16,871 bases of DNA, taken from Alphaproteobacteria bacterium. Lineage in GTDB: Bacteria; Pseudomonadota; Alphaproteobacteria; Sphingomonadales; Sphingomonadaceae. Under the pieces are notes generated by a model. That model worked only from the letters and a program-made list of their open reading frames with translations, was not told the origin of the DNA and did no database searches. Below, piece by piece: positions 3,652 through 7,120 of the stretch. Within the stretch, counting starts at the first letter, position 1, and the number at the start of each line of letters is the position of its first letter. The translations under genes were made by a program, and so were the position numbers. The stretch covers positions 1 through 16,871 of the forward strand of contig JAQGLD010000493.1 in assembly GCA_028293055.1 (NCBI GenBank). The letters are read 5' to 3'.

Positions 3652-4539
3652 TCATCCCTGCGGCACGTCGCTCCCGAACAACCAGTCGTGGAACACTCGT
3701 ACCGGCCTCTGCTTGAGCGCCGAGCGCCGACAGGCGAACCAGTAGCTGTACGGGCTCTCGACCGTGACATCGAACAGCTGGACCAGCCGGTCGTCGTGCG
3801 AATGGCGCAAATGGCTCTCGAGCATGAACGCCACTCCAAGTCCTTGCGCGGCGGCGTCGAGGATCAGCTGACCCGAATCGAAATGGTCGATCGCGGCGGG
3901 CTGGAGGTTGGGCAGCCCGATCGCCTCCCGCCAGTAAGCGAAAGTCTCGGGCATGTCGCGGTGGAGAAAGATGGTCGCATTGGCGAGCTGCGCCGGCTCG
4001 GTGATCGCATTGGGCCCGTCGCGAAGCTCGCGAGAGGCGATGGTGATCACCCGGTTGCTGTCGATCCGACGCGAGTAGAGCGATGGGTCGACCTCGCTCG
4101 TGATCGCGATCGCCGCATCCAGTCCGTCGTTGAGCCTGCCGATGCGATTGGCGCCGGTGTCGAGGTCGATGTGGAGGTCGGGATATTGGTCGCGCAACGC
4201 CGGCAGGGCCGGCATAAGCCGCTGAGACGCGAACAAGGAGGGGACCGCGAGGCGGAGCCTCATCATCTCGCCATTGCCGCTCGCCCGCTCCATCGCCAGC
4301 GCCAGCGCATCGATCGACGGGGCGATCTCGGCGAGCAGCCGCTCCCCGTCGCCGTTGAGATTGACGCCCTGGTGGCGCCGCTCGAACAAGGGATGTCCAA
4401 TGAATCGCTCGAGTGCCTGGATACGGCGGGTCAGCGCCGGCGACGACAAAGCGAGGGCCTCGGCGGCCGCCTTGAGCGAGCCCAGGCGCGCGACCTGCAC
4501 GAAGGCTTCGATCGCGGTCAGAGGGGGTAGTCTGCGCAT
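3652..4539 (-). CDS. LysR-family transcriptional regulator (GcvA-like)
   Basis: Encodes 295 residues, the normal LysR length. The N-terminal winged helix-turn-helix is clear (LTAIEAFVQVARLGSLKAAAEAL, then SSPALTRRIQALE, about 7-44), followed by the linker and a substrate-binding domain of periplasmic-binding-protein type (about 90-290). The 'PPLTAIEAF' opening and the C-terminal part resemble the GcvA group. The effector and target genes are unknown. The ATG at 4539 is chosen because the domain starts immediately after it; GGAGG lies 13 bases upstream and AAGAGG directly abuts it. A GTG at 4578 is a weaker alternative. LysR regulators often control a divergent neighbour. Here the divergent side holds the small RNA candidate and the AAA+ ATPase rather than a metabolic gene, so the target may be elsewhere or the convergent SDR. 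Confidence 0.94.
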   Translation of the reverse strand: MRRLPPLTAIEAFVQVARLGSLKAAAEALALSSPALTRRIQALERFIGHPLFERRHQGVNLNGDGERLLAEIAPSIDALALAMERASGNGEMMRLRLAVPSLFASQRLMPALPALRDQYPDLHIDLDTGANRIGRLNDGLDAAIAITSEVDPSLYSRRIDSNRVITIASRELRDGPNAITEPAQLANATIFLHRDMPETFAYWREAIGLPNLQPAAIDHFDSGQLILDAAAQGLGVAFMLESHLRHSHDDRLVQLFDVTVESPYSYWFACRRSALKQRPVRVFHDWLFGSDVPQG

Positions 4540-4619
4540 CCTCTTGGTGCTGCCTCCATGTTTTCTTGTGCAGCGCACCCTTTACAATTGGGGCCAGATT
4601 TCGCGGAAATGGCCTTAGC

Positions 4620-4666
4620 TGCAAGTGCAATTCGTGCACCTATATCATATTTTCTTCGCACTTGCA
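4620..4666. promoter_or_regulatory. 9-bp inverted repeat around AT-rich promoter-like segment
   Basis: tgcaagtgc (4620-4628) and gcacttgca (4658-4666) are perfect inverse complements. They flank the most AT-rich stretch of the local sequence (about 4641-4655, 'tatatcatatttt'). That stretch could hold a -10 element for a transcript running right towards the terminator at 4728-4757. A further gtgca/tgcac pair lies at 4626-4639. The arrangement fits an operator straddling a promoter between the divergent LysR gene and the small RNA candidate, but no start site is proven. Confidence 0.4.
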
Positions 4667-4757
4667 CAATAACGCTCGCAGGCGCAAAAAGACCCTGCCT
4701 TTCAGGCATCCTCTCCTAAAACTTTCAGGGCCGGCCTTCGGGACCGGCCCTTTTTTT
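4655..4757 (+). ncRNA. Candidate small RNA ending in an intrinsic terminator
   Basis: The 4579-4825 gap holds no plausible protein gene, yet it contains an excellent rho-independent terminator (4728-4757) that would stop a transcript 68 bases before the ATPase start. Upstream of it are a small hairpin (gcc-tttca-ggc, about 4697-4707), a C/U-rich unpaired stretch 'atcctctcct' (4708-4717) that could pair with Shine-Dalgarno sequences, and a cccug/caggg closing pair. An AT-rich promoter-like block lies at 4641-4651, which would give a transcript of about 100 nt. Trans-acting bacterial small RNAs often have this plan: stem, anti-SD loop, terminator stem, U-tail. An alternative is a leader attenuator of the ATPase gene. 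I do not recognise the family, and the 5' end is a guess. Confidence 0.5.
4728..4757 (+). terminator. Strong rho-independent terminator
   Basis: A 7-bp all-GC stem (gggccgg 4728-4734 / ccggccc 4744-4750) with a TTCG-containing loop is followed directly by seven T (4751-4757). This is the clearest intrinsic terminator in the window. It points to the right and sits upstream of the AAA+ ATPase, not downstream of any visible gene on the plus strand. Confidence 0.9.
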
Positions 4758-4825
4758 GCGCCTGTCGCGCTGGCGCTCCCGCTATGGCTTCCTATCTCCG
4801 TCGCGACAGAGGAGATCAGCCGGCC

Positions 4826-7120
4826 ATGGCGGACGAAGAAAAGCAGCCGACGCGCCTCCAGGTTGCGACGATGCGGCCTGAGGATAGCGGGCGCGGCCTT
4901 GCCCGGCTGCCGCGGCGGATCATGACCGAGCTCGGTCTCGCCGAAGGCGACGTAATCGAGATCACGGGCAAGCGGGCGACGCCCGCGCGTGCCGTGGGGC
5001 CTTATGCCGAGGACGAGGGTCTCGACATCATCCGCCTGGACGGGCTCCAGCGCGCCAACGCCGAGATCGGCTCGGGCGATTTCGTCACCATCCGCAAGGC
5101 CGATTCGAAGCCCGCGCAACGCGTGGTGTTCGCACCCGCGCAGAAGAACCTCCATCTCCAGGGTTCGGCGCAGGCGCTCAAGCGCAGCTTCGGGATGAAG
5201 CCGCTCACCGCGGGCGACGTCGTCGCCACTACCGGCCAGCAGCAGATCCAGCGCGGCGACATCCCGCCCGAGCTCCGCCAGATGCTCTATTCTCCGGCGT
5301 ATGCGCTTCAGGAGATCCGCCTGACCGTGGTCTCGACCGCGCCCAAGGGCATCGTCCATATCGACGCGAATACCGAGGTCGAGCTAAGGCCCGAATATAC
5401 CGAAGCGTCCGACACCCGCCGCACCGACGTCACCTACGACGATATCGGCGGCCTCGGCACGACGATCGACCAGATCCGCGAGATGGTGGAGCTGCCGCTG
5501 CGCTATCCGCAGCTGTTCGAGCGGCTGGGCGTCGATCCGCCCAAGGGCGTCCTCCTCCACGGCCCGCCCGGCACCGGCAAGACCCGGCTGGCCCGAGCGG
5601 TCGCCAACGAAAGCGACGCGACCTTCTTCCACATCGCCGGACCCGAAATCATGGGCTCGGCCTATGGCGAGAGCGAGCGTCGGCTGCGCGAGATCTTCGA
5701 GGAAGCCGCCCAGGCCTCGCCCTCGATCATCTTCATCGACGAGATCGATTCGATCGCGCCCAAGCGCGGGCAGGTCCAGGGCGAGACCGAGAAGAGGCTG
5801 GTCGCCCAATTGCTCACCCTGCTCGACGGTCTCGAGCCGCGGCAGAATACCGTCGTGATCGCAGCGACCAACCGACCCGAGGCGATCGACGAAGCGCTGC
5901 GCCGCCCGGGCCGGTTCGACCGCGAGATCGTCATCGGAGTGCCCGACGAGCGCGGCCGCCGCGAGATTCTCGGAATCCACACCCGCGGCATGCCGCTCGA
6001 TTCCGAAGTCGATCTCGCCGAGCTGGCGCGGCGCACCTACGGATTCGTCGGCGCCGACCTTGCCGCCTTGACCCGCGAGGCGGCGATCGACGCCGTCCGC
6101 AGGATCATGCCCAGGATCAACCTCCAGGAAGGCACGATTCCGCCCGAAGTGCTGGAGAATCTCTCGGTTTCGGCCAATGATTTCGATCAGGCGCTCAAGC
6201 GCATCCAGCCCTCCGCGATGCGCGAGGTGATGGTCCAGAAGCCCGATGTGAAATGGGACGATGTCGGCGGCCTCGACGATGCCCGCGAGCGGCTTCGGGA
6301 AGGCGTCGAGCTGCCGCTCAAGCATCCCGACGCGTTCAAGCGGATGGGGATCAGGCCGGCCAAGGGCTTCCTGCTCTACGGACCGCCGGGCACCGGGAAG
6401 ACACTGCTCGCCAAGGCTGCGGCGCGCGAGGCCGAGGCCAATTTCATCGCCACCAAATCCTCCGACCTGCTGTCCAAATGGTATGGCGAGAGCGAGCAGC
6501 AGATCGCGCGTCTGTTCGCGCGTGCGCGCCAGGTCGCTCCGACGGTGATCTTCATTGACGAGCTCGACAGCCTGGTTCCCGCCCGCGGCGGCGGCCTCGG
6601 CGAGCCGCAGGTCACCGAGCGTGTGGTCAATGCGATCCTCGCAGAGATGGACGGGCTCGAGGAGCTCCAGTCGGTGGTCGTGATCGGCGCCACCAACCGA
6701 CCCAACCTGATCGACCCGGCGCTGCTTCGTCCGGGACGATTCGACGAGCTCATCTATGTCGCGGTGCCCGACAAGGCTGGACGGCGCAGGATCCTGTCCA
6801 TCCACACCACGAAGATGCCGCTGGCCCAGGATGTCGACCTCGACAGCCTCGCCGCGCGTACCGAGAGGTTTACCGGCGCGGATCTGGAGGATTTGGTTCG
6901 CCGCGCCGGCCTGTTCGCATTGCGCGGATCGATGGACGCCAGCCAGGTCGGCGCCGCCGACTTCGAGGCTGCGCTCAAGGAGACCAGGGCCTCCGTGACG
7001 CCCGAGACCGAGCGCGAATATGAGCAGATCCAGTCCAAGCTGAAGCAGGATGCGATGAGCCTCGGAGGCATCGGCTTCGTCTCTCCGGGAATGCTCACGC
7101 CGCGCAATCGCGACGAGTGA
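4826..7120 (+). CDS. CDC48/VAT-like AAA+ ATPase
   Basis: Encodes 764 residues with the full layout of the CDC48/p97/VAT family. An N-terminal double-psi barrel and second N-subdomain (about 8-185) precede two AAA+ modules. D1 has Walker A GPPGTGKT (246-253), Walker B IIFIDEID (301-308) and arginine-finger region RRPGRFD (359-365). D2 has Walker A (519-526), Walker B VIFIDELD (575-582) and RPGRFD (635-640). Pore-loop aromatics are Tyr280 (AYGESE) in D1 and Trp552-Tyr553 (KWYGESE) in D2, so both rings look able to grip and pull a substrate. Known relatives are hexameric unfoldases. Bacterial partners are not well defined, and no HbYX proteasome-docking tail is seen. The ATG at 4826 (MADEEK) is preferred, with GAGGAG 11 bases upstream; an earlier in-frame ATG lies at 4784. 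Some actinobacterial and alphaproteobacterial genomes carry such genes. Confidence 0.95.
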   Translation: MADEEKQPTRLQVATMRPEDSGRGLARLPRRIMTELGLAEGDVIEITGKRATPARAVGPYAEDEGLDIIRLDGLQRANAEIGSGDFVTIRKADSKPAQRVVFAPAQKNLHLQGSAQALKRSFGMKPLTAGDVVATTGQQQIQRGDIPPELRQMLYSPAYALQEIRLTVVSTAPKGIVHIDANTEVELRPEYTEASDTRRTDVTYDDIGGLGTTIDQIREMVELPLRYPQLFERLGVDPPKGVLLHGPPGTGKTRLARAVANESDATFFHIAGPEIMGSAYGESERRLREIFEEAAQASPSIIFIDEIDSIAPKRGQVQGETEKRLVAQLLTLLDGLEPRQNTVVIAATNRPEAIDEALRRPGRFDREIVIGVPDERGRREILGIHTRGMPLDSEVDLAELARRTYGFVGADLAALTREAAIDAVRRIMPRINLQEGTIPPEVLENLSVSANDFDQALKRIQPSAMREVMVQKPDVKWDDVGGLDDARERLREGVELPLKHPDAFKRMGIRPAKGFLLYGPPGTGKTLLAKAAAREAEANFIATKSSDLLSKWYGESEQQIARLFARARQVAPTVIFIDELDSLVPARGGGLGEPQVTERVVNAILAEMDGLEELQSVVVIGATNRPNLIDPALLRPGRFDELIYVAVPDKAGRRRILSIHTTKMPLAQDVDLDSLAARTERFTGADLEDLVRRAGLFALRGSMDASQVGAADFEAALKETRASVTPETEREYEQIQSKLKQDAMSLGGIGFVSPGMLTPRNRDE

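Follow-up and report, generated by a model that had tools for sequence, protein, structure and literature searches.

The window (the whole stretch of 16,871 nucleotides that was analysed, from a genome of the Sphingomonadaceae) carries a gene for a GcvA-like LysR-type regulator (3652..4542, minus strand; PF00126 and PF03466), the proposed regulator of the RNA discussed here, and a gene for a CDC48-family AAA ATPase (4826..7117, plus strand; TIGR01243, 919.9 bits with a cut-off of 802.65), its conserved downstream neighbour. The best NCBIfam match of the LysR protein is GcvA, at a score under that model's cut-off. Between the two genes, cmscan against Rfam places RF00519 (suhB/mmgR, alpha-r8) at 4690-4765 on the plus strand, scoring 56.9 bits where the gathering threshold is 41; six further Rfam families matched the window more weakly, none approaching its own gathering score. 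The stretch 4690-4765 is a real small RNA of this catalogued family, and the word 'undescribed', used in the initial annotation, has to be dropped, because the score is well above the RF00519 cut-off and the relatives MmgR, SuhB and SisA-D have been studied (according to the accessible portions of the source papers). Otherwise every feature noticed there was recovered in its place, and the predictions support its picture of a free small RNA with its own promoter, a mini-hairpin, an anti-Shine-Dalgarno stretch and an intrinsic terminator. That the window encodes an alpha-r8-family RNA with an independent promoter is practically certain.

The predicted transcript is about 61-63 nt long (4695..4757, plus strand; RF00519 match, 5′ end taken from promoter spacing as explained below). 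The segment 4696-4758 folds better than 200 of 200 shuffled versions (z -3.46), and its predicted fold shows the mini-hairpin, the C/U-rich unpaired stretch and the terminator with seven T. Specifically, it consists of a 5′ mini-hairpin UGCC-UUUCA-GGCA (TGCC-TTTCA-GGCA in DNA; 4696..4708), a single-stranded pyrimidine-rich seed UCCUCUCCU (4709..4717), which is anti-Shine-Dalgarno in character and a sphingomonad variant of the family core, and an intrinsic terminator (4728..4757; stem 4728-4750, seven T at 4751-4757), all on the plus strand. In the 32 aligned copies of alignment A1, all five consensus pairs of the terminator show double-sided changes that keep the pair (each in 1-10 of the 32 rows), and each is broken or gapped in 2-6 rows. 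The four pairs of the mini-hairpin are unchanged in all 32 rows, which says little, because 31 of these rows had been chosen with an exact search pattern that already fixes 9 of the hairpin's 13 bases. A simple terminator scan missed the terminator on the plus strand, which has a bulged stem. The same scan gave, for the suggested two-way terminator, at best one weak 5-bp match on the minus strand (0.7 on average in shuffled sequences), and that suggestion was rejected.

Within its family the RNA is somewhat unusual. In the sphingomonad form of the core, GGCAUCCUCUCC replaces the CUCCC of the family, and at the position of the alpha-r8 core the window reads AUCCUCUCCU. As this differs from the published 10-mer core, the RNA is filed as a divergent sub-class of RF00519 and not as canonical alpha-r8. 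A weak hairpin 5′ of the core and a Rho-independent terminator, both typical of alpha-r8, are present at the window; the N-formylglutamate amidohydrolase (FGase) gene that adjoins alpha-r8 in most species is absent there, the neighbours being the LysR and CDC48-like ATPase genes, which also sets the locus apart from that of MmgR. MmgR of Sinorhizobium meliloti shares the Rfam family, the stem-loops and the anti-Shine-Dalgarno stretch, as far as the available parts of its papers describe them, but it is 77 nt long against the 61-63 nt or so predicted here, the published core is UUUCCUCCCU against the seed UCCUCUCCU here, and the promoter elements quoted for mmgR are unlike those of the window. 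Closer in length is SuhB of Sphingopyxis granuli TFA, at 61 nt, which is likened here by its description in the accessible part of the source (PMC6563040). The SisA-D RNAs of Caulobacter crescentus are, as here, several alpha-r8 siblings in one genome with a common seed, whereas no conserved upstream motif is reported for them in the portion of the paper available (PMC12559287), in contrast to the two-part promoter common to most copies here.

RF00519 matches over the cut-off occur in 83 of the 98 genomes searched, the window's own included, which has two such copies, both with the composite promoter pattern defined below. A separate observation in this genome is an alpha-r8 copy on contig C629 (1691-1771, plus strand; 32 bits, under the RF00519 cut-off), which overlaps the end of an FGase gene (PF05013), has the canonical core UUCCUCCCUGAAC and reads GUUCCUCCCU where the window has AUCCUCUCCU. 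By eye, a similar FGase-type copy is found in sixteen other genomes of the genus, mostly with TTGAA upstream, which we take as a possible heat-shock sigma promoter.

The start of the RNA was placed by comparison. In several related genera TTGCAC is followed, after 16-17 nt, by CATAT(A) and then by about 7 nt to CCTTTCAGG (judged by eye); from this -35/-10 spacing, together with the 61 nt of SuhB, we infer a transcription start near 4695 and therefore an RNA of about 61-63 nt. The window's own -10 box is poor, and a consensus scan found no sigma-70 promoter; 4620-4690 is the predicted promoter region, and the AT-rich promoter-like block of the initial annotation is retained in the form of conserved promoter sequence on the plus strand. 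That annotation had also pointed out an exact inverse complement between caggcgcaaaaa (4679..4690, plus strand) and tttttgcgcctg (4753-4764), which is indeed there, and had suggested that it could produce an antiterminated, longer transcript. Taken in isolation, 4679-4764 folds strongly (z -5.8). With a start near 4695, however, the 5′ arm lies in promoter DNA (the spacer/-10 region), upstream of the start and outside the predicted RNA. Among 194 copies (two of the 196 described below, with no T run, were dropped) the longest complement measures 12 nt in a single copy, that of the window; one copy reaches 8 nt, six reach 7, and the other 186 have 6 or fewer. After one shuffle of each 5′ arm, one copy had 8 nt and the remaining 193 had no more than 6. 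Complements of at least 6 nt are somewhat commoner in real copies (28 of 194, against 14 of 194 shuffled), a slight excess of the kind that A runs facing the U tail would give. The pairing 4679-4690/4753-4764, peculiar to this genome, was rejected as an antiterminator, and we take the 12-nt match as coincidence.

The exact core YAGGCATCCTCTCC is present in 51 of the 59 genomes of the family, in 81 copies (one copy in 35 genomes, two to five in 16), and outside the family only once each in two of 39 other genomes of the order, at no listed RF00519 match. In 46 of the 51 genomes with a core the ATPase gene lies downstream of it on the same strand, at most 2.5 kb away, and in 42 of them at most 600 nt away. 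Conversely, for the 47 family genomes with the ATPase (defined at E up to 1e-120), an RF00519 match, in some cases below the gathering score, lies at most 500 nt upstream on the same strand in 42 and 1.3-2.2 kb upstream in four further genomes; in G037 no RF00519 match lies upstream of the ATPase gene among the matches listed, and no core is found there. The ATPase, a CDC48-family AAA protein with CDC48_N and CDC48_2 domains in a bacterium, and in 47 of 59 family genomes, is an observation in its own right; it is probably not part of the mechanism of the RNA. Two others concern copy number. At three loci (L152 in G052:C1, L153 in G054:C32, and L236) pairs of alpha-r8 copies lie about 350 to 1000 bases apart, an arrangement that suggests tandem duplication, and at L164 (G042:C1) a second core, TAGGCATCCTCTCC, follows straight after the terminator of a copy and looks like what is left of an RNA that had been duplicated.

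The cores are preceded by two elements, TTGC-N7-GCAA and YGCANTTGY, each at a fixed distance. In the window these are the dyad TGCA-N5-TGCA (a T-N11-A pattern; 4626..4638, upstream of the RNA), a predicted LysR-type binding site with its centre near -64 of the predicted start, and, near -34, the conserved promoter element TTCGCACTTGCACAA (4655..4669, plus strand), which overlaps the -35 box TTGCAC (4662-4667). Their conservation was counted, with both strands taken into account, over 196 distinct copies, made up of fetched genome loci and 120 named stretches. The named stretches were found by an exact 17-base pattern (at least 120, with 80 among the matches listed), so that sequence invariance in these stretches and in the named rows of A1 is there by construction. 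The 196 include one chance match (L255, a Planctomycetes record) and exclude copies with too little flank; where both collections hold a copy of the same species, it enters the count twice except when 110 bases are identical. At least seven of the eight dyad bases are present in 164 of the 196 copies, against 2% of shuffled upstream regions, and in 141 of these 164 the dyad starts at -77 or -78 from the core; YGCANTTGY is present in 168, in 158 of them at -46. The remaining copies depart from this scheme, with fewer than seven dyad bases in 32 of 196 and no -35 element in 28 of 196. In 10 copies the half-sites change jointly, from TTGCA..TGCAA to TTGCG..CGCAA, while the inner bases are symmetric (A..T or G..C) in only 105 of the 164.

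The composite pattern TGCA-N5-YGCA-N12..20-GCACTTGC was found 42 times across the 98 genomes and its reversed form twice; 37 of the 42 places are 38-39 nt before a core. Of the 81 family cores, 37 have the pattern in this strict form. Among the five places elsewhere, three (L171 in G038:C43, L172 in G041:C1 and L173 in G036:C12) have the dyad and the -35 element without a core and look, by eye, like possible further regulon members near protein genes. Among the loci returned from other families of the order, none of 15 copies has seven or more dyad bases (two reach six); all 15 carry the canonical CUCCCU core and one has a TGCATTTGC. A two-part promoter common to most copies in the Sphingomonadaceae looks new: a literature search, which covered its sources in part (the first publications on SuhB of Sphingopyxis, from 2018, and on how mmgR is distributed, from 2016, lay outside it), returned no description of the promoter that the copies share, of the LysR gene or of the linkage to the ATPase.

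LysR-type regulators usually bind sites at -65 and -35. A T-N11-A dyad upstream, a second site near -35 and a divergent regulator gene, all expected of a LysR-type promoter, are found here, and according to the accessible text of one source T-N11-A is the motif preferred by LysR proteins, which bind at two sites (PMC11739112). In 36 genomes the LysR gene lies divergently at a distance of 108-205 nt from the core; four of these (G026, G049, G053 and G054) have the pair but no detected ATPase. A LysR homologue (at least 48% identity) and the core occur in an identical set of 51 of the 59 family genomes, a count that leaves out G037 (36% LysR homologue, no core); some of the eight genomes with neither are incomplete (G047 67%, G032 86%). 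On a SpoT tree (37 family genomes and four others, with two rows outside the clade on long branches) this corresponds to about one joint gain, on the stem of a clade supported at 100/100, and to the absence of both from G050, a member of that clade. With about one joint gain and one joint loss, the co-occurrence therefore weighs little as independent evidence; it fits a functional tie between the two genes without proving one. In 15 core-bearing genomes the LysR homologue lies away from any core (14 at 48-52% identity, G056 at 65%), and the upstream regions of distal LysR genes (G037 and G056 left out), inspected for signs of autoregulation, show a dyad of at least seven of eight bases in 5 of 14 cases, one scoring 8. 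The small RNAs activated by VtlR, another LysR-type regulator, belong to RNA families other than alpha-r8. VtlR activates small RNAs in Agrobacterium and thus exemplifies LysR-type control of the kind proposed here, although its proposed box, GCAT-N3-TG-N3-T, is unlike the present dyad (PMC7486931, as far as its accessible text goes). On these grounds the LysR protein probably controls the RNA.

Other readings of the promoter and of its setting have to be weighed against this one. The shared promoter may be chiefly under the control of PhaR (AniA), the repressor that senses polyhydroxybutyrate, as mmgR of Sinorhizobium has been found to be; the LysR gene would then just happen to lie nearby. 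A PhaR-type domain (PF07879) is encoded in the window's own genome, in vitro binding of PhaR to the S. meliloti mmgR promoter is on record (PMC12542648), and the accessible part of one paper says that in Sphingopyxis the transcription of suhB is favoured by polyhydroxybutyrate granules (PMC6563040). Set against the published PhaR consensus TGCRNYGCASMA (PMC6201568), the -35 element CGCA-CT-TGCACAA agrees exactly with its second half, with a spacer one base longer and C for T at the start. Compared with YGCR-N1-YGCR, the centre of a longer PhaR motif (given as YGCRNYGCR in PMC12542648), the half-sites of CGCA-N2-TGCACAA are similar, but the conserved spacer of the -35 element is 2 and not 1, and the upstream dyad, with a spacer of 5, fits T-N11-A and not the quoted PhaR sites. 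Moreover, the form TTNGCACTTGCNNAA occurs a single time in the window's genome, in the window itself, and is therefore at no other promoter of that genome in that exact form. PhaR acting at the -35 element is a serious rival or partner to the LysR protein, even if PhaR as the main actor is rather unlikely.

It is improbable that the promoter is simply sequence inherited along with the RNA copies, with no dedicated regulator. In favour of this, the copies of one family share their descent, with few gains and losses; against it, the sequence lying between the two elements and the RNA is highly variable (by eye) while the dyad and the -35 element keep fixed offsets, and half-sites change together in some copies. 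Less probable still is a role as leader attenuator or antiterminator for the CDC48-like ATPase gene, as the initial annotation had considered. The same-strand linkage in 46 genomes, mostly at no more than 600 nt, and the 12-nt complement in the window's genome would suit such a leader, but neither a conserved alternative fold nor a constant linkage was found. The complement is not conserved among the 194 copies, the distance grows to 1.3-2.2 kb in four genomes, and paralogues elsewhere carry the same promoter. Five core-bearing genomes keep the RNA without an ATPase match at E 1e-120 (four of them also keeping the LysR-RNA pair), which makes the leader reading unlikely.

Regarding targets, AGGAGAGGA-N2..11-ATG occurs at seven places in the window's genome, against one for the reversed pattern. 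One of the seven precedes a fragment, 198 codons long, of a phaB-like reductase, which scores 282.3 bits with the acetoacetyl-CoA reductase model TIGR01829, short of the 302.1 that the model requires. The reductase was found in 47 other genomes among the 58 searched; starts were examined in 40 of these 47. Within the genus, 22 of 25 genomes (G019, the 26th, had no match) have a run of at least 7 bases complementary to the RNA no more than 30 nt from the start; so do three of six from other core-bearing genera, one of which (G034) has no start codon at the expected place. Among genomes without the core the figure is three of ten, or three of seven with a clear start, since G030, G075 and G063 have no start codon where expected. 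The baseline, drawn from the named stretches and thus from mixed genera, is 25 of 187 long ORFs with a Shine-Dalgarno sequence, or 20 of 182 without five that are antisense to the RNA. Because kinship makes the genomes poor independent samples and the controls are imperfect, the phaB-like reductase is only a lead, and its role as a target of the RNA is tentative. In the same genome AGGAGAGGA also stands before the starts of genes that, by eye, encode an MFS-like transporter, an amidohydrolase-like protein and a TonB-like protein (L302, L303 and L307). From the accessible portions of the literature, SisA of Caulobacter pairs upstream of a start codon and acts on several mRNAs (PMC12559287), SuhB acts on thnR (PMC6563040), and MmgR is part of polyhydroxybutyrate control, its source papers, in those portions, reporting no direct target.

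Taken together, the following explanation seems the best as a whole, with a probability of about 0.65, the phaB-like target excepted. The sphingomonad-form alpha-r8 RNA would be a trans-acting RNA, transcribed from its own promoter. The GcvA-like LysR protein, as putative activator or repressor, would bind the dyad near -64 and the site over the -35 box, in the two-site layout of LysR regulators, and so control both the window copy and a paralogue on contig C510. The RNA, presumably with Hfq, would pair its seed UCCUCUCCU with Shine-Dalgarno sequences and block translation, the phaB-like acetoacetyl-CoA reductase being the best target candidate found. More speculatively, sphingomonads may have two parallel alpha-r8 systems, an ancestral FGase-linked RNA that keeps the canonical seed, and one to five derived siblings whose seed is altered. 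Through their shared promoter these siblings would form a nearly exclusive regulon of one LysR-type protein and set polyhydroxybutyrate (PHB) synthesis via the phaB ribosome-binding site.

The copies compared here illustrate that Rfam-annotated members of one family in one genome can differ in both seed and promoter. If the proposed regulation is true, one transcription factor would be dedicated to sibling small RNAs across a large bacterial family, and carbon-storage control of the MmgR/SuhB type would gain an upstream input.
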